Positions 7,799 through 52,491 of a DNA stretch of 64,000 nt are shown piece after piece. A program made the translations under genes and the position numbers. The notes beneath the pieces are model-generated. The model saw nothing but the letters and a program-made list of their open reading frames with translations. It ran no database searches and was not told where the DNA came from. Position 1 is the first letter of the stretch; every line of letters begins with the position of its first letter. Origin of the DNA: Microcaldota archaeon (GTDB lineage: Archaea; Micrarchaeota; Micrarchaeia; Micrarchaeales; Micrarchaeaceae); assembly GCA_021787495.1 (NCBI GenBank), contig JAJYLX010000004.1:1-64000 (forward strand). Reading direction: 5' to 3'.

Positions 7799-8344
7799 TC
7801 ACTTCGCGCTCACTGCCTGCTGCGAATATGAAAGGTTGACCTTGTACAGGCCCGACAGCTTCGTCGCGGCGCGCCTATACGCCTCCTTGACCACGCCCTT
7901 GTTCTTCGAGGACGTGCTGATTATGAAGACCGGCTGGTTCGCGTTGACGCGCGCCGCCACAGAGGTCGGTCGGCCGAACGACTGGCTCATCCCCCTCGAG
8001 AGACGGTCTGCGCCCGCACCCGTCGCCATCTTGTGCTCCCTTATCACGTTGTGCGGGTAGACCATTACCTTGAAGAAGTACTGCCCCGGTATGTTCACCT
8101 CCAGGTACCTGTTCGCCGCCTGGCGTGCCGACTCGAGGGAGTTGGAGCGTATCTGTATCTTGCCCTGCGTAGTCAGCGCGGCCTCCATGTCGTACGAGCT
8201 GTCGCGCTTGCCCATATCGAATATCAGTATGCTCCTCCTGGGCAGCGCACGGACGAAGTTCTTCTTTTGGTTCTTCAGCGAGTACCTTGACCACGCCTGC
8301 GAGTTCGGCGTCCTGCACGTCCTTGCCGGCCTCAATCTTGCCAT
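7799..8344 (-). CDS. rpl10e: Large-subunit ribosomal protein uL16 (L10e)
   Basis: A 181-residue protein matching archaeal L10e/uL16, a core 50S protein near the A site and peptidyl-transferase centre. Family text includes MARLRPARTCR at the start, VMVYPHNVIREHKMATGAGADR, and a basic, Gly-rich region around the loop facing the tRNA. Start ATG at 8344. A TAAATAG box on the minus strand near 8372-8379 may be its promoter. It is the first gene of a minus-strand run uL16-polC-pyrG and is divergent from the ATPase operon. Confidence 0.93.
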   Translation of the reverse strand: MARLRPARTCRTPNSQAWSRYSLKNQKKNFVRALPRRSILIFDMGKRDSSYDMEAALTTQGKIQIRSNSLESARQAANRYLEVNIPGQYFFKVMVYPHNVIREHKMATGAGADRLSRGMSQSFGRPTSVAARVNANQPVFIISTSSKNKGVVKEAYRRAATKLSGLYKVNLSYSQQAVSAK

Positions 8345-38098: not shown

Positions 38099-39046
38099 AT
38101 GCGGGGAAACAAGGGCCACATACTGACCGTGCTCGTGTTCATAGGCAGCATAATGGCGCTGCTGTACGCCGTGTTCTACATACAGCAAATCTCGGTGGCC
38201 GTCGGGATAGACTCGGGCGTCTACGCGGCCAGCAGGGCGTACAACATAACGCTCAGCGCTGCCGACATCGGATATATCGGCAACCTGCCGTCGCTCAGCC
38301 TCGCCCTGCAGCTCAGCTACCTCATGCTGGTGCTGGCGCTCATAACGTTCGCGTTCGCCGTGCTGCAGCTCTTCCAGACGAGAAGGGGGGCGAGCAGCAT
38401 GTCGATCATAGGCGCGTCGCTCTTCTACGCGGCCCTGGCGTACATACTGGAGACGGGGTTCAGCTTCGCCGAACCTTACCAGTACTTTGCGCTTGCTGTG
38501 CTCGGGGCGGCGCTGGCGGCCGGCCCAGCCCTTTACATGACCGCGATCGACAAACCAGCGAAGGGCGCGAGGATGGCGAGGAACATAAGCGTCAACCCTC
38601 TCACGCCGTACAGCAACATGCTGAAGCTGTCTGGGGAACTGGGCGCGAAGATGCACGGCAACCTGCGCATACTTGATATGCATTTCGACTCCGCGGGCCT
38701 CAAGAACCTCGCGGCGATGCTCAATGGCAACGAGCGCAACTACACCGGCGTCAGCGTTCTGACGAAGAGGGACAGGCTGGACGGCGCGCTGATGAAGGAG
38801 TGCCGGGACTTCAGCGAGGAGCTGCACAACTCCGGCGTCGAGTTCGACGTGAGGGTGATGAACGGCGAGGACGCCGCCATGCAGCACGAGCGCCTGATGC
38901 TGGACGGAAGCCACGCGTACAAGATACCGCCGCTCAACATAATCAACAAGAAGAGCGAACATATAGTCAGCATCGCGCGGAACGAGGCCGCGAAGCGCTT
39001 CAACTATGTGTGGGAGAGGGGCACCAAGCTGGACAACGTTTCCTGA
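38099..39046 (+). CDS. Membrane protein with C-terminal PLD-like (MIT_C-like) domain
   Basis: A 315-residue protein. Residues 8-160 have four to five hydrophobic helices (ILTVLVFIGSIMALLYAVFYI, LSYLMLVLALITFAFAVL, SIIGASLFYAALAYILE, LAVLGAALAAGPALYM; quoted in short segments). The cytoplasmic C-terminal half runs LRILDMHFDSAGLKNLAAM, GVSVLTKRDRLDGALM, SGVEFDVRVMNGED and HERLMLDGSHAYKIPP. This order, ending in H-x-R-x-x-x-D-G, resembles the phospholipase D-like domain found at the C-terminus of MIT proteins. The match is by eye and tentative. I chose ATG 38099; a TTG at 38084 would add five residues. Confidence 0.55.
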   Translation: MRGNKGHILTVLVFIGSIMALLYAVFYIQQISVAVGIDSGVYAASRAYNITLSAADIGYIGNLPSLSLALQLSYLMLVLALITFAFAVLQLFQTRRGASSMSIIGASLFYAALAYILETGFSFAEPYQYFALAVLGAALAAGPALYMTAIDKPAKGARMARNISVNPLTPYSNMLKLSGELGAKMHGNLRILDMHFDSAGLKNLAAMLNGNERNYTGVSVLTKRDRLDGALMKECRDFSEELHNSGVEFDVRVMNGEDAAMQHERLMLDGSHAYKIPPLNIINKKSEHIVSIARNEAAKRFNYVWERGTKLDNVS

Positions 39047-39112
39047 GGCACGGTGCTTGCGATGCCGGCCATGGCGGGCTGCGGGCGAAGCGCGCAAGGC
39101 CCGGCTCCCGGT

Positions 39113-40144
39113 TTATCCCGCGGGCGGCGATATCGCCACGGCGCTCAGCCCCGCGGGATCACATATGTCTGTCCAGTCCACCGCCAGCTCGTACGTGCCA
39201 TTGGCGAAGTTCACGGTCGTAGGGCCGTACTGCGTGGGTGGCTCGCCCTTCCATGCTACGCCGTTGAAGACGCTATGCCATGTCCCTCCCGAAGCTGGCC
39301 TGTAGAATATCTCCGTCCCATCATCCGAGATTATCGTGAAGTTGTAGTTGCCGTTCAGGTTCACGTACGCTATCGCGCTGTAGCCGTGCGACGAGTATGG
39401 CTTGGTGCACGAGGCGTTGTCCGCGGCGAGCAGCTTCGATGGGAAGACTGTGGTCTCAATGCCGAAGTATATGTCGTTCATGTGATAATCGGTGCTGAAG
39501 CTGTAGGCCTCGGCGTTGTTCTTGAGCAGCGATTCCCATGTCGTGTGCTCCTTCACGGTCACGCCTACTGGCAGCTCCGGGTTCGCCGTGACCGAAGAAT
39601 ACGGCAGTAGGTCCACGTTGCTGCTCGACGGCTGCCATACGGTGACGTTCCACAGCACGCTCACATATGATACGGTGAGGAAGCCCTTGGCGTAGTTCTG
39701 CTGCAGCCCTGTCACCGCCCCCTGGTCATAGAATATCCAGAGGTCGTAGCTCGACGAGCTGCCGAAGTTGGTGTTGAGCAGCGGGCACTGGAACGTGAGC
39801 GTCATCGTCTGTCCGGGCTGAACAGGTATCCTCGTCGTCTCTTCGCTGGGGTACTTGCTCGACGGGGTGATGTTGCAGAGCAGCCCGGTTATCGTTATTG
39901 GCGCGGGGCCGAAGTAGCCGAACGTTATCGTGAGGGCGCCGTCGGAGTTGAGCTGCGGGTTGGAGCAGAGGAAGGGCGGGTTCTGCAGGCAGACCAGAGG
40001 CAGCGGGGTGCTGTTGAACACCCCGAGGAAATAAAGTATGCCCAATACCACAGCTATTATCAGGATGGCCCAGCCGTACGTCATGAGGTATTCCATCGCG
40101 GACTGCGCCTTGCCCGCCCGCGCATGTCTGTCGCCTGTCAGCAT
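39113..40144 (-). CDS. Class III signal-peptide (pilin-like) protein with PA14-like domain
   Basis: A 343-residue secreted protein. The N-terminus has the same class III signature as the gene at 1-1090 (AQSAMEYLMTYGWAIL), then a hydrophobic helix and an extracellular beta-rich region with many Asn-x-Ser/Thr sequons. Residues 260-340 resemble a PA14 domain (YNFTIISDDGTEIFYRP, GTYELAVDWTD), a carbohydrate-binding or adhesin module. It is probably a surface adhesin or pilus-tip subunit. Start ATG 40144 lies 35 bp from the left end of the mobile island. The 12 residues before the KAQSAM signature make an unusually long leader. Confidence 0.75.
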   Translation of the reverse strand: MLTGDRHARAGKAQSAMEYLMTYGWAILIIAVVLGILYFLGVFNSTPLPLVCLQNPPFLCSNPQLNSDGALTITFGYFGPAPITITGLLCNITPSSKYPSEETTRIPVQPGQTMTLTFQCPLLNTNFGSSSSYDLWIFYDQGAVTGLQQNYAKGFLTVSYVSVLWNVTVWQPSSSNVDLLPYSSVTANPELPVGVTVKEHTTWESLLKNNAEAYSFSTDYHMNDIYFGIETTVFPSKLLAADNASCTKPYSSHGYSAIAYVNLNGNYNFTIISDDGTEIFYRPASGGTWHSVFNGVAWKGEPPTQYGPTTVNFANGTYELAVDWTDICDPAGLSAVAISPPAG

Positions 40145-40178
40145 CAGATATGTGAGCTACCGCAGCTTAAAAGCCTTT

Positions 40179-40197
40179 CCTTGTAGCGAGCTTTGCT
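40179..40197 (+). repeat. Left copy of a 19-bp direct repeat bounding the island
   Basis: CCTTGTAGCGAGCTTTGCT is identical to 46128-46146. The two copies bracket about 5.9 kb that carries a transposase and a restriction-modification set. It could be an attachment site or a long target duplication. Confidence 0.8.
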
Positions 40198-40250
40198 CAG
40201 ATAGTCGCTCATAAAGTCCACTTTCTGAGCAGATGAAGGACTTTTTGAGC
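40195..40250 (+). repeat. Left cluster of 12-bp repeats (consensus GACTTtnTGAGC)
   Basis: Four copies. Two are inverted: 40195-40206 (GCTCAGATAGTC) and 40207-40218 (GCTCATAAAGTC). Two are direct: 40219-40230 (CACTTTCTGAGC) and 40239-40250 (GACTTTTTGAGC). The first three abut without a gap. The inverted copies make the left end mirror the right cluster at 46073-46122. Likely recombinase or transposase binding sites. Confidence 0.75.
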
Positions 40251-40322
40251 AGATTCGTTTACCAACGTAGCCCAAAGTATGACGTATAAACCTATCTCGA
40301 CCTATATGCTCTCGGTGGTATC

Positions 40323-40508
40323 ATGTCAAAATACCGAGTAAGTTTCAAGAGACAAGGAACAGGCGGGGATACAAGAGAATACGGCATAATCGTAGAAGCA
40401 GATAGCTTAGGCGATGCTGAACCCAAAGCAGTTAGAGAGATACAGAACAGGCACGCAAAGGGCTTCCTGACCGAGAATAACATAATCAAGATAGAGCAGG
40501 TCGAATAG
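40323..40508 (+). CDS. Small hypothetical protein
   Basis: A 61-residue protein (MSKYRVSFKRQGTGGDTREY) with no recognised family. A TATA-like CGTATAAA near 40283-40290 and a GGTGG ribosome-binding-like element just before the ATG support it as real. Its stop TAG overlaps a GTG codon by one base (TAGTG) just before the next small ORF. It may be an accessory gene of the island. Confidence 0.5.
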   Translation: MSKYRVSFKRQGTGGDTREYGIIVEADSLGDAEPKAVREIQNRHAKGFLTENNIIKIEQVE

Positions 40509-40516
40509 TGATTTTC

Positions 40517-40702
40517 ATGGATGATTATACCAAGAACTTCTGGATTACTATGGGAATTTCAGGGTTATTCAGCCTCGCAGGAGGCTACGCGGCAGCAAAG
40601 GCGACTGGTCAGAAATTCGGAATAGGAGAAGCACTACTCTCGGCAGGTGCTGGTGCTTCTACTGGCGCACTTATCTACAAGGCCACAGTCAAGAGGAAAT
40701 GA
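40517..40702 (+). CDS. Small membrane protein, hypothetical
   Basis: A 61-residue protein rich in Gly/Ala with two potential membrane segments (WITMGISGLFSLAGGYAAA and EALLSAGAGASTGALIY) and a basic end. Alternative start GTG 40508 overlaps the upstream stop; ATG 40517 is used. Convergent with the transposase gene, overlapping it by 14 bp. No family recognised. Confidence 0.45.
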   Translation: MDDYTKNFWITMGISGLFSLAGGYAAAKATGQKFGIGEALLSAGAGASTGALIYKATVKRK

Positions 40703-41942
40703 GCGTCGGCTCTATCTTCAACTCATACATCGCACTTATCAGTACCGTAATATTGTAAGCTATCAGCTTGCATAGCACCTCGTTGGTCTGCGAGACGAAG
40801 GTCTTGTTCTTGACGCTGTCCCCGAACTTCGCCTTTACCGCAAAGAAGGTGGTCTCGACATTGCTCCTATTATGGTAGTGTTCGAGGAACTCGTCCTGAT
40901 GCAACTGGAAATAGTGGAAAGCCCTGCGCCATACCCTTGCCCTATTCCCAGTATTGCCTCGTGCGGTTGTACCGCTTCTGTAAGGTATGTAAGCTGTTCC
41001 GCCTATCTCATGTACTGCGTTGTAGTTTGCCATGCTGTTGTATGCCTTGTCAGCCGATAGCTCATTAACATTGAAACCTATCTCTATCGTATTGTTAAGC
41101 ATGGGTATCATCTGAGGGCAGTCAGGGCTGTTCTCGTCCATGATTATGGCATCCGTTATGATATTCGTGGTGTTACCAGTCATGGCATGGCACTTTATCC
41201 ACTTGTGCTCTCTCTTTGTCTTGTGCTTCTGTTCACAGTAGTCGCTGAACCTCGAAGTCCTGAACCCTGTCGAGTCAGGGCTGAACTTGGTCTCTATGCC
41301 CTTCAACGGCGCAGCCGTGATGTGCAGAAGGTCGGTCAGGATTGGCGTTACCCTCATGTCGTTCAGGGTTATGTTCACGATGTTGTAGCTGGGTGCTTTC
41401 CCTATCTGCTCCTTCTGCTGTGCATCCTCATAGCGGGAGTGCGCCCTCCTGCTGGACTGCATGGAATAGACCTTGTCTATGGCGCAGAAGATGGCCGTCC
41501 TTTTAGGTACGCTCGGTCTTCCGAAGTGATAAGGCTCTTCTGGCATATTCTCCACGAGGTCTTTCAAGAGCGTCCTGAACAGGTGGCCTTCCTCGACCTG
41601 AGCCTTAGTGTAGTCAGGCCAGTCCTGAGAGTAGGTAATCCTTTTGGTGGCCGTGATAGTGGCTGTGCCGTCTTGGTTCATAGTCTTGGTTATCGTTATC
41701 TCCACGGCGAATATGTGCTTGCACTTTATTCCTCTCTCGACGAAATCAGGGCAGGTGCATGTGCTTTTGTCTATCCTAAGCATGACCTCATACTGCCTAT
41801 TACTCGACTGAGAAGGAACGAGCCACTTATAGCCGTCCCTGACGACCTTCTTGGTCTTGGCAATCTGTATGCCCTTCTGCTTCCTTACCTGCAAGAGTTC
41901 TTGGAGTTGCATAGATATCATCTTTAGGTGCCTAATGCACAA
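40689..41942 (-). CDS. SWIM-domain DDE-type transposase
   Basis: A 417-residue transposase-like protein. Residues 65-85 form a SWIM zinc motif (STCTCPDFVERGIKCKHIF: CxC...CxH). The catalytic core shows a D in PDSTGFRTSRFSD, a second D in ELSADKAYNS and an E in NRSNVETTFFAVKAK, consistent with a DDE/RNase H-like transposase. Three in-frame ATGs (41942, 41921, 41912) could start it. The palindromic TATA at 41959-41978 puts a transcript start near 41942, so 41942 is used with caution. The family within the IS groups is not certain. Confidence 0.72.
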   Translation of the reverse strand: MCIRHLKMISMQLQELLQVRKQKGIQIAKTKKVVRDGYKWLVPSQSSNRQYEVMLRIDKSTCTCPDFVERGIKCKHIFAVEITITKTMNQDGTATITATKRITYSQDWPDYTKAQVEEGHLFRTLLKDLVENMPEEPYHFGRPSVPKRTAIFCAIDKVYSMQSSRRAHSRYEDAQQKEQIGKAPSYNIVNITLNDMRVTPILTDLLHITAAPLKGIETKFSPDSTGFRTSRFSDYCEQKHKTKREHKWIKCHAMTGNTTNIITDAIIMDENSPDCPQMIPMLNNTIEIGFNVNELSADKAYNSMANYNAVHEIGGTAYIPYRSGTTARGNTGNRARVWRRAFHYFQLHQDEFLEHYHNRSNVETTFFAVKAKFGDSVKNKTFVSQTNEVLCKLIAYNITVLISAMYELKIEPTLISS

Positions 41943-42018
41943 TATAGTATTAGGTGCCTAAAGGTATATATACCTTTACATTAGGTGCCTATTGCATTAT
42001 AAAGCTTTCGGCACCTAA
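41924..42018. promoter_or_regulatory. Symmetric four-box operator and divergent promoter
   Basis: Four copies of TTAGG-TG-CCTAA or its inverse: 41924-41935, 41950-41961, 41981-41992 (last base T) and 42007-42018 (inverted, TTCGGCACCTAA). Spacing is 26, 31 and 26 bp. A perfect 20-bp palindrome TAAAGGTATATATACCTTTA (41959-41978) lies at the centre and contains a TATA readable on both strands. It separates the transposase (minus) and AbrB-like gene (plus), so it is a likely shared, self-regulated promoter. Confidence 0.8.
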
Positions 42019-42027
42019 ATACACATT

Positions 42028-42828
42028 ATGAAGCTTCAAAAACGTCTTTCACGAAAGGTTGGTAAAAAGGAATATGTAAAGTGGGTTATCACTGTTCCCC
42101 CTAATGAAATAGAAAGGTTAGGCTGGGATGAAGGTCAGAAGCTGAAAACAGAGGTAAGCGATGTAGGTTTAGTAATAAAGAAAAGTTCAGAACCCTCATA
42201 TCAAGATTTTAAGACTAAAATCTCTGAATTACTTAGAGAGAAATCGCAAGGCTTAACATGGAATGAAATTAAAGAAAAATTAAAACTTGAGATAAAGGTA
42301 CCAAACAATAGGTGGGTCAGAAAGTTAGAAGATGATGTTTCGCTGCGCAGAATGAACTACAACGGGCAAAAATACTGGTACCTTGATAAAAATGGCATAA
42401 CTGTTTATACGATAGGCTATGAAGGTCGTTCGATAGAGGAGTTTATGGGCATTCTAAAGATGCATAATATAGAATGCTTGATAGATGTACGAGAATTGCC
42501 ATTAAGCAGGAAAAATGGATTTTCAAAATCTATACTGAGTAAGAAATTAGAAGATAAAAATATCATATATAGACATTTTCCTGAACTTGGTTCTCCGAGA
42601 GAGATAAGGCATGAATTATGGGGTGGTGGCAATTATGAGAAATTCTTTAAGGCATATTCCGAGTGGCTTTCGTCACCACATGCCAAGACATATATTGGAG
42701 ATGTTGAGGGTTGGTCTCATGTAAAAACCACTGCCATAATGTGCTTTGAGAAGGACGTTGAAAAATGCCACAGAAGCATCATAAAGAAAAGATTAATCCA
42801 AGATGGATTCAAAGTCGTGGATATATGA
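42028..42828 (+). CDS. AbrB-like DNA-binding/DUF488 fusion protein
   Basis: A 266-residue protein. Residues 1-55 look like an AbrB/MazE swapped-hairpin (YVKWVITVPPNEIERLGWDEG, quoted in part as VITVPPNEIERLGW). Residues 60-120 have helix-turn-helix-like text (GLTWNEIKEKLKLEI). The rest is DUF488: ITVYTIGYEGRSIEEF, LIDVRELPLSRKNGFSK and IMCFEKDVEKCHRS. The TATA at 41997-42004 makes it leaderless from ATG 42028. Probably a regulator of the operator beside it; DUF488 function is unknown. Its stop overlaps the next gene (ATGA). Confidence 0.78.
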   Translation: MKLQKRLSRKVGKKEYVKWVITVPPNEIERLGWDEGQKLKTEVSDVGLVIKKSSEPSYQDFKTKISELLREKSQGLTWNEIKEKLKLEIKVPNNRWVRKLEDDVSLRRMNYNGQKYWYLDKNGITVYTIGYEGRSIEEFMGILKMHNIECLIDVRELPLSRKNGFSKSILSKKLEDKNIIYRHFPELGSPREIRHELWGGGNYEKFFKAYSEWLSSPHAKTYIGDVEGWSHVKTTAIMCFEKDVEKCHRSIIKKRLIQDGFKVVDI

Positions 42829-43616
42829 CCTATCAAAAGCACGACCTGCTACTTATTGTAGAGACTTATCCGAATCTGAGTAAAAAGTACGATAAAACAG
42901 TATGTATGGCTGGAATAGATATGAAATCCTATGAATGGATGCGAATATATCCAGTGCCATTTTTTGATATACCTGTAGAGAAAAGACCACATAAATGGGA
43001 GCGGTTAGAGATTTTTACAGAACGCAATTTATCTGAGAAATTAAAGAGAAAAGAAAGTAACAGAATAGATTATACAAAGATTAGAAAATTGGGTGGTATT
43101 TCGACAAAGAATGCATGGTCTGATAGAAATAATATCGTATATAAGAATATAGCACCGTCAATCGAGTTCTTGGAAGAAGCATCCAAAGTAGACAGGACTT
43201 CTTTAGGTTTTATAAAACCAAAATACATAACTGACTTTTACGTGGAACCAATAGCAAATGCACGAGATTGGGAGAGAGAACTTGTAGAAGGAACTCAAAA
43301 AACTTTATTCAATGCCGTTTATAGAAGTCCGATTGAGAAAATACCATACAGATTCGCATATAAATTCCGTTGTAATGATGGGTGTAGAGGCCATGATTTA
43401 ATGGTGGAGGACTGGGAATTATTTGCACTTTATAGGGGTTTAATCAAGAGAGGAGACGACGAGCAAACCGCAATGCAAAAGTGCATATACAAATACAAAG
43501 ATGAATTCTTATCTAAGAAAGATATTGGATTTTTTGTGGGAACTGAAAGCCGTTGGAATAAATGGTTGATAATTGGTGTTTATTATCCACCTAAAACAAA
43601 TTCTATACAGACTTGA
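42825..43616 (+). CDS. Partner protein of the DUF488 fusion, unknown family
   Basis: A 263-residue AT-rich-coded protein starting MTYQKHDLLLIVETYP at ATG 42825, overlapping the upstream stop by 4 bp, so translationally coupled. It has mixed alpha/beta text (KTVCMAGIDMKSYEWMRIY, YRFAYKFRCNDGCRGHDLMV) and a Cys/His cluster CNDGCRGH. It may belong to proteins with dual OB-type folds that occur beside DUF488 genes, but this identification is from memory and uncertain. No clear catalytic motif. Confidence 0.6.
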   Translation: MTYQKHDLLLIVETYPNLSKKYDKTVCMAGIDMKSYEWMRIYPVPFFDIPVEKRPHKWERLEIFTERNLSEKLKRKESNRIDYTKIRKLGGISTKNAWSDRNNIVYKNIAPSIEFLEEASKVDRTSLGFIKPKYITDFYVEPIANARDWERELVEGTQKTLFNAVYRSPIEKIPYRFAYKFRCNDGCRGHDLMVEDWELFALYRGLIKRGDDEQTAMQKCIYKYKDEFLSKKDIGFFVGTESRWNKWLIIGVYYPPKTNSIQT

Positions 43617-43707
43617 TATTATGAAAAGCCTTAAAAGCTTGAACTGCGCAATACGATTACAAAATGCGAATGGCAATCGCTCTATAAGACAGCCAACTGC
43701 TTCTGGG

Positions 43708-44082
43708 TCAAGGGTAGGATGTGGTCATAAAAGTTAGCGTATGCTTTAATGTAGAGCTTATCTTATCCGCCGTCAATTGATGCTCCCAAACATGCAGAAT
43801 TTTCCAGCCATCCTTCTTTAACCGCAGGTCTTTTGCTTTTGCACGCTGCAAGTTTTTCTTGAGCTTGGGCACCCAATACCTTTTATTGCTCTTGGGTATG
43901 TGGCTATGCAAAGGGCAGCCATGCCAGAAGCACCCATCTATGAAAATTGCAAGTTTCAGGTTAGGGAAGGCAATATCTATCCGCTCTTTTCCGTAGTTGA
44001 CCCTATATTTAAGCCCAGCAGAATGCAGAGCTTTCCTAAAGGCGATTTCGGGCCTTGTGTCCCTGTATCTTATCTTGGACAT
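43708..44082 (-). CDS. vsr: Very short patch repair endonuclease (Vsr)
   Basis: A 124-residue protein. Family text: IDIAFPNLKLAIFIDGCFWHGCPLHSH and PKLKKNLQRAKAKDLRLKK (quoted in parts). The CFWHGCP zinc/active-site loop and the D in FIDGCFW are present. Vsr nicks T:G mismatches arising from deamination of 5-methylcytosine, so it fits the C5 methyltransferase encoded nearby. Start ATG 44082; convergent with the gene at 42825-43616. Confidence 0.92.
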   Translation of the reverse strand: MSKIRYRDTRPEIAFRKALHSAGLKYRVNYGKERIDIAFPNLKLAIFIDGCFWHGCPLHSHIPKSNKRYWVPKLKKNLQRAKAKDLRLKKDGWKILHVWEHQLTADKISSTLKHTLTFMTTSYP

Positions 44083-44162
44083 TATCCGTGACCTTACGGT
44101 CTTGCTAAAGCGGTCTATCGAAACACCATCATTTATTTAACTTTGGGCATGTCTATATAAGT

Positions 44163-45017
44163 ATGGCAAATAACATATTGAGCGCCATTTACGGCATAGC
44201 CCAATACCGCAAGAATAGCATAGCGGACTATGCCTCCATTTACAAAAATAGGATAAATTCTGTTGGGGAAGGGCTTGAAATATACATCAAAGATGCATTG
44301 GCTGGCTCTTTGGGCAAATCTCAAGCCGAATGCGAGAGCAGTTATCATAGCACCTTCTCTTGGAGGGGCACACAGAACAATCCGCCTGATGTGATACTCA
44401 AGCATGGGGACGCCTTTGAAGTAAAGAAGATAGAAGGCAGGTCAAGCGCTTTGCAGCTTAACAGTTCACCACCTAAAAATATGTTGCATTCGGCAGACCC
44501 AAGGGTAACAAAGGATTGCAGGAATTGTGAAGAGAGACCATGGGAAAAAAAGGATTTGTTTTATGTGGTTGGCAGTGTCCAGAATAGAAGGATAAATTAT
44601 CTCTTTTTTGTGCATGGTCTGTGTTATGCGGCAGACGAATCTGTTTATAGCAGAATACACAGCCCACTTAAAAAGGATATAGGTGCGCTGATAAAAGCAA
44701 AGGGGCTGGAAGGGAAGGAAACAATAGAGCTTGGAAATGTGACTAAAGTAGACCCACTTGGGATTACAGATTTGCGAATCAGGGGAATGTGGATTATACA
44801 AAACCCAGTTCAGGTATTCAAAAAGTTTTCACCCATACTTCCTAATAAAGAATTTTCTTTGGCAGCAATCATGACTGAAGAAAAGTATAGGTCATTTGGA
44901 AAAGCAGCAGGCAGCTTAGAGGCAGATAAGCGGGTCAAGGTCACCGACATAAAGGTTGACAACCCAAACAATCCAGCAAAAGAGATTTCAGCAAAGCTTT
45001 TGCAATTGTGGTGGTAA
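44163..45017 (+). CDS. NgoPII-type type II restriction endonuclease
   Basis: A 284-residue protein resembling the NgoPII family of type II endonucleases (GGCC specificity in known members). The PD-(D/E)xK core fits PPDVILKHGDAFEVKKIEG (D...E-V-K). The family text LNSSPPKNMLHS follows. It starts at ATG 44163 and ends just before the methyltransferase start. Specificity is inferred from family, not shown here. Confidence 0.85.
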   Translation: MANNILSAIYGIAQYRKNSIADYASIYKNRINSVGEGLEIYIKDALAGSLGKSQAECESSYHSTFSWRGTQNNPPDVILKHGDAFEVKKIEGRSSALQLNSSPPKNMLHSADPRVTKDCRNCEERPWEKKDLFYVVGSVQNRRINYLFFVHGLCYAADESVYSRIHSPLKKDIGALIKAKGLEGKETIELGNVTKVDPLGITDLRIRGMWIIQNPVQVFKKFSPILPNKEFSLAAIMTEEKYRSFGKAAGSLEADKRVKVTDIKVDNPNNPAKEISAKLLQLWW

Positions 45018-45018
45018 A

Positions 45019-46074
45019 ATGAGAATTGTATCCCTCTTTTCAGGCGCAGGGGGCTTAGATTTAGGTTTCGAGCAGGCAGGTTTTGAGATTGTCTATGCGA
45101 ATGATTTTGACAAAGCCTGCTGGGAAACTTATGAGAGGAACCACGGGATAAAACTGGATGGTCGCTCCATAACGGAGATAAGGTCAAGCCAGATACCAAA
45201 AGCAGACGGCATAATAGGAGGCCCTCCTTGCCAAAGCTGGAGCCTTGCAGGTATGATGAAGGGCATAAAGGACGCCAGAGGCAAGCTGTTTTACGAATAC
45301 ATACGGATAATAAGGGACAAGAAGCCCATGTTTTTCGTGGCTGAGAATGTGCCTGGCATAATATCAAGCACTCATTTTGGCGAATTTAAGAAGATAGTAG
45401 AGGGCTTTGCCTCACTGGGCTACGATGTCACATACAAGCTGCTTGATGCAAGGGACTATGGGGTTCCGCAAGAGCGCAAGCGTGTGATAATCGTGGGCTA
45501 CAAAAAGGCTTTGGGGAAGAAATTTGAGTTTCCAGAGCCGACGCACTCTAAAAAGCCCATGCGCTTGCTTTCGGGGAAAATGACCAAATCTTGGGTTACG
45601 CTGAAAGACGCAATAGGGGATTTGAAGGATGCAAAGCATGCTGGGCTAAAGAATGCTGCAAACGATGGTTTGAGAATCTCAAATAATGAATACATGAATG
45701 GCGGATTCTCGACGATATACATGTCAAGGAACAGGCTAAAGGGATGGGAATGCCAGTCCTTTACCATACAGGCAGGCGGCAGGCATGCTCCTCTCCATCC
45801 AGATTCGGCAAAGATGCAAAAAGTAAGGGAAAACAAGTATGTGTTCTTAGGGGATACATACAGGAGGCTATCAGTAAGGGAATGCGCCAGAATACAGACC
45901 TTCCCAGACAGCTTTACATTCTATTATAAGAACGTGAGCGACGGCTATAAAATGATAGGGAATGCTGTCCCAGTATCGCTGGCAAAGGCAATAGCCTTGA
46001 AGATAAAAGAAGACCTTTCTATCCCAGCCGTTAACAGGAGCAGAAAAGTGCGTCGCATAAGAGCTAAGCCTTGA
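45019..46074 (+). CDS. DNA (cytosine-5)-methyltransferase
   Basis: A 351-residue C5 methyltransferase. Motif I is LFSGAGGLDLGF, motif IV is GGPPCQSWS with the catalytic Cys, motif VI is ENVPG, motif VIII is QERKRVIIVG, and motifs IX-X are RLSVRECARIQTFPD and GNAVP. The target-recognition region lies between VIII and IX. It starts at ATG 45019, one base after the endonuclease stop. With the NgoPII-like nuclease and Vsr it makes a complete R-M set, likely protecting GGCC. Confidence 0.95.
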   Translation: MRIVSLFSGAGGLDLGFEQAGFEIVYANDFDKACWETYERNHGIKLDGRSITEIRSSQIPKADGIIGGPPCQSWSLAGMMKGIKDARGKLFYEYIRIIRDKKPMFFVAENVPGIISSTHFGEFKKIVEGFASLGYDVTYKLLDARDYGVPQERKRVIIVGYKKALGKKFEFPEPTHSKKPMRLLSGKMTKSWVTLKDAIGDLKDAKHAGLKNAANDGLRISNNEYMNGGFSTIYMSRNRLKGWECQSFTIQAGGRHAPLHPDSAKMQKVRENKYVFLGDTYRRLSVRECARIQTFPDSFTFYYKNVSDGYKMIGNAVPVSLAKAIALKIKEDLSIPAVNRSRKVRRIRAKP

Positions 46075-46122
46075 CTTTCTGAGCAACTTTCAGACTTTAT
46101 GAGCAAGATTGACTTCCTGAGC
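46073..46122 (+). repeat. Right cluster of 12-bp repeats (consensus GACTTtnTGAGC)
   Basis: Three direct copies: 46073-46084 (GACTTTCTGAGC), 46093-46104 (GACTTTATGAGC) and 46111-46122 (GACTTCCTGAGC), with 8- and 6-bp spacers. They mirror the inverted copies at 40195-40218, so the island ends behave as terminal inverted repeats. The first copy overlaps the methyltransferase stop. Confidence 0.75.
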
Positions 46123-46127
46123 AAAGC

Positions 46128-46146
46128 CCTTGTAGCGAGCTTTGCT
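46128..46146 (+). repeat. Right copy of the 19-bp direct repeat bounding the island
   Basis: CCTTGTAGCGAGCTTTGCT, identical to 40179-40197. Just upstream AGCAAAGC can pair with the GCTTTGCT at its end to make a small hairpin (46122-46146). Confidence 0.8.
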
Positions 46147-46360
46147 GATAAGGGACATAATAGTAGGGAGTTGACAAATTATAAGCCTTCGCACTTCCGC
46201 TAATACGGAAGCTTCAATTTCTATAATATTTTATACCCTGCTGGAGGGTCTGTTCCATCCCCGGCGTGAAGGCCGGCCGGATTTCCCAAACCCTTCAGAC
46301 CACCCACTCTTAAATATTTTGATGCGCACAAATAGCATTGTCGCAACGGATGTGATTATC
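46147..46360. other. Intergenic region right of the island
   Basis: This 214-bp stretch holds no supported ORF. It has two short hairpins, CTTCCG-CTAATA-CGGAAG (about 46194-46211) and ACCCT-GCTGG-AGGGT, an AT-rich TATA-like run (TCTATAATATTTTATACC), and a second box (TTAAATATTTT, 46310-46320) that would serve the next gene. Confidence 0.45.
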
Positions 46361-47008
46361 ATGGTAGTGGCCAACAGGAGCATGGCAGATGCAACGAGGG
46401 GCGGGCAGGCCGGACACAAGGGCGAGAGCCTGGAACACTCTTGGTCATTTAGGGACTGGTCCGAAAGGAAGGACATCGGCGGCGCATTCCTGAAAAAGAG
46501 GGAGATTGAAGGGCTAAACGAGGCGCTCGGCGCCAAGAAGTTCGCGCAGCTGGCATGGTTCGGCGAGGTCGGGGACCTATGGGGCTGCGTGAAGGACCGC
46601 GGGAAAGAAGAAGGCATGGAGCTGCTGGCGCATTTCGCGGCGGTAATCGATTGCTTCCCCGCTATCAGCCATTTCACCGACAAGGCGGCCGCCAGGGCCG
46701 CCGCGAAGGCCGTGACGCTGTCCTATGCTGTGACGGTAAACAAATATGCAGACGACGCCGTCGCGGTGCAGGTCTCGGACTGGATAGCCAGGGCCGCCAA
46801 GAGGGGCGACGACGTCATTGACGGCGTGGAACGCGTCTTCAGGGACAACGGGGTCGTGGCGGCGATAAACAAGCTCGGTCCTGACAAGGGCGGCCAGGCC
46901 GCGTTCAGGCTGGGAAAGATCGCGCTCGAGGAAGCCGAAGCCCGGCACAAGGCCGGCAGCGGAATGGGCGGCATCGTGCAGGAAGTGGCGCGGAAGCTGA
47001 AGGGCTGA
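46361..47008 (+). CDS. Hypothetical helical protein
   Basis: A 215-residue, mostly helical soluble protein (MVVANRSMADATRGGQ start), with text such as FRDWSERKDIGGAFLKKRE and AHFAAVIDCFPAISHF. I do not recognise it. The open frame extends to TTG 46319 and ATG 46322, but the TATA-like TTAAATATTTT near 46310-46320 favours a start around 46361. Host-like GC-rich codon use, so outside the island. Confidence 0.6.
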   Translation: MVVANRSMADATRGGQAGHKGESLEHSWSFRDWSERKDIGGAFLKKREIEGLNEALGAKKFAQLAWFGEVGDLWGCVKDRGKEEGMELLAHFAAVIDCFPAISHFTDKAAARAAAKAVTLSYAVTVNKYADDAVAVQVSDWIARAAKRGDDVIDGVERVFRDNGVVAAINKLGPDKGGQAAFRLGKIALEEAEARHKAGSGMGGIVQEVARKLKG

Positions 47009-48277: not shown

Positions 48278-49231
48278 TCATGTCGATGCGGAGCGCAACT
48301 TTGAAAGGTCTTTTCTGATGACCTGCATCAGCTTAGGCTCCTCGTGGTACTCATTGCGCCTGACTGCCTGCGATACCCGCAGCATGTCTGTATCAGGCAC
48401 ATACGGAGAAAGTGTGCTTCTCCGCAACCACAGATGTGCCATCACGTCATTAGAGATCCCATCGTGCTCACGCTTCAGCTGCCTGAACACGTCTATAACC
48501 GCGATATACCTTCGCACTGAGTACCCTGCCAAAGCCGGATTCTTTAGTATTTCAGCCCTGATCATTTCAGAATCGATCCCAATCAAGTTACCTACCCTGT
48601 TAAGTTTTTGTGAGACTCTCTCGTGGTTCAGACCCGCGAACGAGGGGAATGACGAGACGATCTTTGAGACCTGCTGGTCGGTGAAGCCGTACGCAGCCTT
48701 TATGCCCTTGATGACGCGCTCATGATTATAACCCGCGAACGAGGGGAATGACGAGACGATCTTTGAGACCTGCTGGTCGGTGAAGCCGTACGCAGCCTTT
48801 ATGCCCTTGATGACGCGCTCATGGTCCAGACCCGCGAACGAGGGGGATGACGAGACGATCTTTGAGACCTGCTGGTCGGTGAAGCCGTACGCAGCCTTTA
48901 TGCCCTTGATGACGCGCTCATGGTCCAGACCCGCGAACGAGGGGGATGACGAGACGATCTTTGAGACCTGCTGGTCGGTGAAGCCGTATGCGGCCTTTAT
49001 GCCCTTGATGACGCGCTCATGATTATAACCCGCGAACGGGGGGAATGCGGATATAATCTTTAGTGTATCGGTAATTGTTATACTGTATATATTGGAAATT
49101 CTGACTATTCTACCGGTTAGCTCAGTGGCCGTCCTGTTCTGGCAACGGCTTTTGAAGCTTTCGTCTTGGGACAGCTCAATAGCTGCCGCATGGTCGAAGC
49201 CCACCTCTACCAGCATATCTACAAACGACAT
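48278..49231 (-). CDS. Helical repeat protein with near-identical mTERF-like repeats
   Basis: A 317-residue protein built around four nearly identical 33-residue units plus flanking degenerate ones. A unit reads VSKIVSSxPSFAGxxHERV then IKGIKAAYGFTDQQ. The pattern (hydrophobic-rich IV-x2-x-PSF, then a second helix ending with GF-x-DQQV) is like mTERF motifs, whose tandem repeats bind nucleic acid in eukaryotic organelles. A TATA centred near 49257 places the start of the message at the ATG, so it is leaderless. The DNA units are also near-identical (99 bp), suggesting recent expansion. Confidence 0.6.
   Translation of the reverse strand: MSFVDMLVEVGFDHAAAIELSQDESFKSRCQNRTATELTGRIVRISNIYSITITDTLKIISAFPPFAGYNHERVIKGIKAAYGFTDQQVSKIVSSSPSFAGLDHERVIKGIKAAYGFTDQQVSKIVSSSPSFAGLDHERVIKGIKAAYGFTDQQVSKIVSSFPSFAGYNHERVIKGIKAAYGFTDQQVSKIVSSFPSFAGLNHERVSQKLNRVGNLIGIDSEMIRAEILKNPALAGYSVRRYIAVIDVFRQLKREHDGISNDVMAHLWLRRSTLSPYVPDTDMLRVSQAVRRNEYHEEPKLMQVIRKDLSKLRSAST
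48620..49040 (-). repeat. 99-bp tandem repeat tract inside the mTERF-like gene
   Basis: Four 99-bp units nearly identical at DNA level, differing mainly at the SSF/SSS and YN/LD codons. High identity suggests recent unequal crossing-over. The tract stays in frame, so it is coding, not CRISPR. Confidence 0.85.
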
Positions 49232-52104: not shown

Positions 52105-52491
52105 ATGATCAAGCTCAAGCGTGTCTACGAGCATGCTGACATCACCGATGGCGACAGGGTGCTCGTCGAGAGGTCGTGGCCGCGCGGCATAAGGAGGAGC
52201 ACGACCAACATCGACTACTGGATACGCGACCTCGGCCCGAGCGAGGAGCTGAAGCGCTGGTTCCTCCACAACCCCTCGCAGTGGGCGGAGTTCAAGGCGA
52301 GATACAAGAAGGAGCTCCTCGAGGGGAAGGCGCTCAAGAAGCTGATAAGCTACATAGGGGACAAGGACCCCGTGACCCTCCTCTACATGTCGCACGATGC
52401 GAGGCACAACGACGCTGCCGTGCTCATAGAGGTGCTGGACTCCAGGCTCGCCAAGCAGATAATGGCCCATAACGGCACCCACTACGGCTGA
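52105..52491 (+). CDS. DUF488 family protein (YeaO-like)
   Basis: A 128-residue stand-alone DUF488 of the YeaO type: IKLKRVYEHADITDGDRVLVERSWPRGIRR near the start (in parts), LGPSEELKRWFLHNPSQWAEF and VTLLYMSHDARHNDA. Biochemical role unknown. It is unrelated in detail to the DUF488 part of the island fusion. First gene of a run DUF488-PIN-rpo7-spt4. Confidence 0.85.
   Translation: MIKLKRVYEHADITDGDRVLVERSWPRGIRRSTTNIDYWIRDLGPSEELKRWFLHNPSQWAEFKARYKKELLEGKALKKLISYIGDKDPVTLLYMSHDARHNDAAVLIEVLDSRLAKQIMAHNGTHYG

Follow-up and report, generated by a model that had tools for sequence, protein, structure and literature searches.

The gene pair described here, found in a window of 64,000 nucleotides from a Microcaldota archaeon (the window being the whole stretch of DNA that was analysed), is a variant of PDC-M19, an already catalogued defence candidate. 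Two features are added to what is catalogued: in the family, a likely sliding-clamp motif at the C-terminus of the partner protein, and in the window copy, the likely capture of an insertion element's repressor. The explanation that best accounts for the whole, to which we give about an even chance, is that of a mobile two-gene module acting against invading or competing replicons. The fixed partner with its predicted DNA-binding fold, together with the clamp tail of the bacterial members, makes the function of DUF488 a testable question. In the window, moreover, a candidate defence gene seems to have taken over an insertion element's regulatory module in frame, and such capture would be a concrete route for defence systems to gain new control.

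The window also encodes the DP2 polymerase large subunit and MCM, its host being an archaeon, and comes from an assembly of 852,337 bases with 86.5% completeness. The two overlapping ORFs proposed by a sequence-only reading are both intact (Table 1), the length given for ORF2 being counted from the ATG within its overlap with the stop codon of ORF1.

Table 1. Positions of the gene pair, its domains and the surrounding features in the window
Feature	Position	Strand	Basis or remark
Island	39040..46861		missing from two same-genus genomes; also holds Vsr, NgoPII-type endonuclease, C5 methylase
SWIM zinc finger + DDE transposase	40689..41942	-	divergent from ORF1, control region in common
Operator-like palindrome TTAGGTGCCTAA, copy 1	41924..41935		pattern scan
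Operator-like palindrome, copy 2	41950..41961		pattern scan
Operator-like palindrome, copy 3, 1 mismatch	41981..41992		pattern scan
Operator-like palindrome, copy 4, minus-strand reading, 1 mismatch	42007..42018		pattern scan
ORF1 (PADLOC PDC-M19A)	42028..42828	+	AbrB-like / winged-helix / DUF488 fusion, 266 aa, frame open
AbrB-like module, residues 1-57 of ORF1	42028..42198	+	related to regulator of SWIM-DDE transposase element
Winged helix-turn-helix, residues 58-119 of ORF1	42199..42384	+	model
DUF488 domain, residues 121-266 of ORF1	42388..42825	+	Pfam, invariant columns, model
ATGA start/stop overlap of ORF1 and ORF2, 4 nt	42825..42828	+	sequence
ORF2 (PADLOC PDC-M19B)	42825..43616	+	263 aa, predicted tandem OB fold, frame open

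A catalogued pair and its predicted folds

The two genes are almost certainly a PDC-M19 pair: in PADLOC-DB, ORF1 matches PDC-M19A over residues 120-259 (PDLC04505, 3.3e-38), and ORF2 matches PDC-M19B over almost its full length (PDLC04508, 5.3e-63). In PHROGs, each protein falls into a family of unknown function. The partner, which the earlier reading had called unknown, is thus already catalogued, as PDC-M19B and as PHROG 25907; ORF2 itself has no match in Pfam or NCBIfam. A literature search by name returned no paper naming PDC-M19 and no functional test of it. As far as the accessible text of the literature searched goes, a search joining clamp binding and anti-phage activity returned no paper on the DUF488/OB pair among those listed, and neither the QxxLF tail of the partner nor the capture of AbrB from a transposase element was met. 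PDC candidates are the product of a guilt-by-embedding screen and, in the accessible text of its source, most are without experimental validation (PMC12988326).

The assignment of the DUF488 domain in the earlier reading stands, with a Pfam match far above the cut-off (PF04343, 6.8e-28, 98.2 bits for a cut-off of 22.2, residues 135-256), joined by a match to the active DUF488-N3 subclade (DUF488-N3a, PF22751, 2.7e-7, 31.3 bits for a cut-off of 27). To our knowledge DUF488 is widespread and without established function; Burroughs and Aravind reportedly placed it in the rhodanese-phosphatase superfamily in 2023, predicting DNA-end processing, and their work may already cover the pairing with an OB protein. 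The alignment of DUF488 domains used for the structure (36 of the fetched sequences) contains 18 invariant columns, all of them kept in the window copy: GYEG, D153, R155, S160, K162, G164, K167, Y181, G188, R194, C239, E241 and C247-H248-R249. The AlphaFold2 model of ORF1 (pLDDT 83.7 overall, about 69-79 in residues 1-120 and at least 86 beyond) has three parts: residues 2-52 form beta hairpins, 58-119 a winged helix and 125-265 an alpha/beta domain. Structural comparison of the DUF488 domain with VIA-align gives CbiL (Z 9.7), diphthine synthase (9.2), laforin (8.8), KAP (8.5) and the archaeal phosphatase SsoPTP (8.1), so that tetrapyrrole methylases score slightly above phosphatases, which weighs against the explanation favoured here. 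DUF488 is likely a cysteine enzyme; that its role is DNA-end processing is conceivable, if rather doubtful.

Structure prediction, suggested in the earlier reading as a way of finding OB folds in the partner, yielded a model with tandem OB folds from 49 aligned sequences, taken from the fetched partners (pLDDT 87.9, pTM 0.86). Among solved structures, Foldseek ranks RPA, nucleotide-excision and telomere end-binding proteins highest (E 3e-4 and weaker) and the HIN-200 DNA sensors close behind, and VIA-align returns LEF-3 (Z 8.1, 6.7 Å over 179), RPA70 1jmc (Z 6.6, 4.5 Å over 183) and several HIN domains (Z near 6). ORF2 very probably consists of two predicted OB folds in tandem, and the structural matches support that much and nothing beyond it. 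The CxxxCxxH cluster noticed in ORF2 is present, as FRCNDGCRGHD, and is a variable trait among relatives: C-x3/4-C-x2-H is kept in five of the nine sequences of one partner alignment, and the proteobacterial partner rows inspected in a second alignment are without it.

Linkage, layout and the C-terminal tail of the partner

Counting from the partner alone, DUF488 lies next to it in 108 of the 110 fetched loci (78/80 genome, 22/22 viral and 8/8 phylum loci, the latter being the other phylum genomes having the partner), a pairing beyond chance. The two exceptions are both genome loci, L090 and L079, which ends 59 bases past the partner. Among the plasmid and phage records examined, DUF488 sits beside the partner in seven of eight, the eighth, Sulfolobus islandicus pSOG2 (L002), having no DUF488 domain in the entire record. 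A DUF488 remnant of 34 codons (positions 7881-7982, 73.5% identity) lies there between an integrase and an intact partner, a broken pair. In all, 118 partners were counted, from 8 plasmid/phage records (of 30 hits), 8 phylum, 79 genome and 22 viral loci, and the window. Left out of the counts were L030-L038 (longer copies of counted loci, L038 being the window), L040 (the same as L008) and L039 (another DUF488 locus of the window genome, which has no partner). L021, L080, L090, L095, L136, L140 and L141 were kept though truncated or apparently misframed, and the viral set apparently holds near-copies (L122/L123, L128/L129, L133/L134 and L137/L138).

The pair is carried by phages and conjugative plasmids and is sporadic in the phylum, where the partner occurs in 9 of 295 genomes, window included. 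Scans of viral sequences with the window partner alone, or with an alignment of its phylum relatives, found no relative, and ORF1 matched none of the plasmid/phage records at 80% coverage (0/101 and 0/7). In Gordonia phages the pair stands between an annotated immunity repressor and an integrase, and in phage Eviarto (L003, 5030-7277) gp43 is the partner and gp42 the DUF488 protein, right after the HTH protein annotated as immunity repressor. Gene 44 had also been considered as the DUF488 gene of Gordonia phages and was rejected in favour of gene 42; in phage Nymphadora, the product of that gene is annotated as a 'HipA toxin' and is actually a DUF488 protein. The window genome has two further DUF488 genes, and yet a single partner gene, that of the pair: one, in the window (52105-52491, +), belongs to the inactive N3i subclade (PF22752, 6.5e-34), and the other is a solo gene of 175 aa (G000:C6:74280-74645, -).

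The two genes are convergent in 90 of 115 pairs and codirectional in the remainder. In 49 of the 90 convergent pairs, from bacterial and phage loci, the 3' ends overlap by exactly 44 nt, so that in those pairs the clamp-like tail of the partner is antisense to the end of DUF488. Mapped on a 44-partner tree, the layout needs to change only twice. Phylum relatives and Sulfolobales plasmids form a supported clade (97/97) from which the window partner, on a long branch of 2.11 changes per column, is excluded; this argues against simple descent within the phylum, the placement of so long a branch being unsure.

What does the tail of the partner do? The motif QxxLF lies within the last 12 residues of 81 of the 118 partners and at the exact C-terminal end of 73. 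The other mechanically called ORFs of these loci that reach 120 aa, 2913 in number and many of them not real genes, give 5 and 0. Stricter controls gave none in 115 DUF488 proteins and none in picked neighbours (0/147, 0/111 and 0/79, that is 0/337). The motif persists after thinning to 90, 70 and 50% identity (64/85, 33/45 and 6/11). A looser tail pattern fits 90 partners, of which 89 have L at position 4 and 44 have S at position 3. It is also found in 7 of the 24 codirectional pairs, nine of which are archaeal, with ends QLSLF, QLKLF and QLRLF, and is therefore more than a by-product of the antisense overlap. In the accessible text of the sources, the usual bacterial clamp-binding motif is QL[S/D]LF, more generally QxxLF, and is C-terminal in PolC too (PMC12309361), while transposases use clamp-binding motifs, of the PCNA form in archaea (PMC4549789). 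Bacterial partners thus probably bind the sliding clamp, as far as motif statistics can indicate. By host, QxxLF occurs in 81 of 107 bacterial and phage partners vs 0 of 11 archaeal ones (Fisher p 9e-7, relatedness ignored). ORF2 ends in IQT, which is neither a QxxLF clamp motif nor a PCNA motif, and two Sulfolobales partners have a degenerate PCNA-like end only. Clamp tethering therefore cannot account for the window copy, and QxxLF informs on the family, not on this copy.

A clamp motif of this kind, typical of replication and repair proteins in the accessible text of PMC12309361, would also suit a replication-fork or DNA-end repair accessory serving the upkeep of the mobile elements themselves, in which the OB protein, acting through the clamp, would cover or mark DNA ends at the replication fork and DUF488 would clean the damaged end. 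The RPA-like fold of the partner and the carriage of the pair on plasmids and phages are likewise consistent with such an accessory, which we nonetheless consider unlikely, as the sporadic presence, the match to a defence candidate and the swapped repressor-like modules better fit an accessory module of conflict. At the opposite end, could the window pair be an inert passenger, left behind by transposition, whose function was lost in the archaeal host? The long branch of its partner, the missing clamp or PCNA motif and the unusual AbrB-DUF488 fusion all point that way, but neither frame is broken and the window copy retains all the DUF488 columns that do not vary across the 36 sequences, which makes such decay very unlikely.

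The AbrB-like front and its operator-like array

The N-terminus of ORF1 matches the Pfam family MazE_antitoxin below its cut-off (PF04014, 0.038, 14.4 bits for a cut-off of 24.7), and the AbrB-like label, already given in the earlier reading, holds on account of relatives and the model instead: this part is 55-66% identical to standalone ORFs of 53-60 aa in four relatives, and is modelled with paired beta hairpins. Among the VIA-align matches listed for ORF1, none is an AbrB protein for residues 1-57, one domain filling the list. In the model, the HTH-like middle takes the form of a winged helix, with residues 57-123 resembling the RNA polymerase III winged helix 8iue_P (Z 9.2, rmsd 2.2 Å, 66 residues).

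When 301 phylum genomes were searched with ORF1 residues 1-120, 7 gave a match, which in the six other than the window genome was confined to the AbrB part. In three of these six, G007 (55 aa), G058 (58 aa) and G298 (60 aa), a standalone AbrB gene and a SWIM-DDE transposase (fragmentary in G058) point away from each other, and TTAGGTGCCTAA-type palindromes lie between the two, as in the window. In the other three, G210, G087 and G079, the stretch fetched showed no SWIM-DDE transposase, and G210 and G079 each have a single palindrome, with one mismatch. Among the 30 transposase loci fetched, the palindrome (up to one mismatch) occurs only in the three that have AbrB, namely the window, G007 and G058. 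Across the window genome it is found, at up to one mismatch, only four times, all within 41924-42018, and the reversed control gives none. Translation of the transposase probably begins at a Met located a few codons into the ORF, in which case palindrome copy 1 would be non-coding.

AbrB is fused to DUF488 in the window only among these loci. Most simply, the repressor gene of the element would have lost its stop codon and so been turned into the front part of the DUF488 gene; with the repressor fused in frame, one array would govern both the transposase and the pair. The array would be bound by the AbrB-like part, and there is a good chance that this part is autoregulatory in the window. Elsewhere in the family, the front of DUF488 is swapped: a Saccharolobus plasmid has ParB_N and HTH_ParB there, phylum relatives have SocA_Panacea (scoring above cut-off in L015, and below it in L016 as well as in viral L126), a viral contig has HTH_59 and a Streptomyces plasmid XRE, while many members have no N-terminal module.

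Such fronts may call to mind a toxin-antitoxin-like arrangement, in which the toxic component would be either DUF488 or the OB protein, with the AbrB, Panacea, XRE or ParB part repressing the operon and keeping the toxin in check. Several fronts are of kinds common in antitoxins (SocA_Panacea in L015, XRE in L007, AbrB-like in the window), the palindromes are operator-like, and a phage DUF488 carries the 'HipA toxin' annotation. Against this stand the many bacterial DUF488 proteins lacking the module and the frequent location of the two genes on opposite strands, so that the repressor part is no obligatory antitoxin, and we hold this arrangement to be distinctly improbable.

The island, the proposed mechanism and comparison with known systems

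The pair is embedded in a zone of lower G+C (about 40000 to 46500), with about 36% for the pair, 40-48% for the restriction genes and mostly 55-65% in the flanks. In the same-genus genome G080, the island is replaced by about 1.1 kb, and in G092 about 1.3 kb stands instead, across a slightly wider interval. The restriction-modification set seen beside the pair by the sequence-only reading was indeed found there, compactly arranged (43708-46074), with a Vsr-like endonuclease, an NgoPII-type endonuclease and a C5 methylase. Farther along (48278-49231, -), a 317-aa protein that matches Pfam mTERF (4e-12) carries 4.2 near-identical tandem repeats of 99 bp (33 aa), which is notable for an archaeon; it is apparently missing from both same-genus genomes at that place, the flanking matches in G080 being about 22 bases apart.

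That the pair regulates the neighbouring restriction-modification genes, as had also been envisaged, would be in keeping with its DNA-binding N-terminus and with the genes lying side by side. The operator-like sites, however, are confined to the region that separates the transposase from ORF1, with no further copy in the assembly at up to one mismatch, and the difference in G+C makes a separate arrival possible, so that a regulatory role of this kind is extremely improbable. The other part of the same proposal, a role in conflict or defence, remains the leading reading, in view of the PDC-M19 match, the foreign island, the carriage by phages and plasmids and the OB folds; that the pair is a defence system appears to us an evenly balanced proposition.

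A search for conserved pairs in defence islands, proposed earlier, shows the pairing to be conserved, but its neighbours are mixed, with no constant defence gene. The 147 nearest bacterial proteins combine defence-like and housekeeping genes (GNAT 6, ResIII 5, UvrD 3, TnsA-like 3, phage lysozyme 3, citrate transporter 3), without a measurable gradient between near and far, a mixture that neither bears out nor dispels the objection, raised in the earlier reading, of a mainly metabolic context. PADLOC families are alike in number near (193 from 147 proteins) and far (187 from 111), and as these counts tally families, not proteins, they show no enrichment either way. No third constant gene was found among the 147 nearest genome-locus proteins or the 79 near proteins of 15 viral loci (79 of 82 scanned, with three L128 rows left out, and a neighbour list without L123, L129, L134, L136, L138, L140 and L141). 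The families listed for those 79 include one integrase, one repressor and two anti-repressors. In Sulfolobales plasmids, a third gene resembling PD-(D/E)XK (L002 8852-9358 and L009 7855-8346) was considered and discarded, since Pfam gave no such match. The missing constant defence gene and near/far gradient in bacteria count against defence, and the prevalent convergent layout is unusual for co-expressed defence genes.

Under the preferred reading, the pair would move horizontally and act against invading or competing replicons. The tandem OB partner would bind DNA, probably single-stranded DNA or DNA ends as its predicted fold suggests, and in bacteria its C-terminal motif would tether it to replicating DNA through the sliding clamp. 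The partner would thereby bring to DNA the DUF488 enzyme, of phosphatase/rhodanese-like fold, whose conserved cysteine may process a nucleotide or DNA-end group and so block propagation of the target. The N-terminal module of DUF488 would be a swappable DNA-binding part, most simply a self-regulator, and in the window the AbrB-like front and the operator array would control transposase and pair together. A bolder version, in which a replication-coupled immune module uses an RPA/HIN-like sensor on the bacterial clamp to deliver the cysteine enzyme to the ends of invader DNA, the archaeon having fused to it the AbrB and operators of an insertion element, seems to us unlikely.

How does the pair compare with known systems? 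Both window proteins match PADLOC PDC-M19 and their genes are adjacent, as the ATGA overlap illustrates, but the first 144 positions of the best PDC-M19A profile are unmatched in ORF1, where the front is AbrB-like and winged-helix instead. Toward DUF488-N3a (PF22751), ORF1 keeps the cysteine and CHR motifs, in a match that spans only residues 183-257. Within the rhodanese-phosphatase superfamily, dual-specificity and archaeal phosphatases are near the DUF488 fold (Z 8.1-8.8), for a Z of 9.7 with the CbiL methylase. RPA70, telomere end-binding and HIN-200 proteins share with ORF2 two tandem OB folds, and bind DNA; with an identity of about 5-14% and Z of about 5-8, the likeness is one of fold arrangement only. 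DuOB (PF22557) also has a tandem OB fold in common with ORF2, by model: it matches 2 of the 49 partners, weakly (best 0.0017), and ORF2 not at E up to 1. In the Saccharolobus plasmid pBEU9E1, ParB is fused to DUF488, and the fusion has an OB partner of the same type as that of the window. In the accessible text of PMC12704722, an archaeal ParB-CTPase fold fused to DUF488-HTH is reported to bind CTP, and there ParB and HTH take the place of the AbrB-like and winged-helix parts of ORF1.
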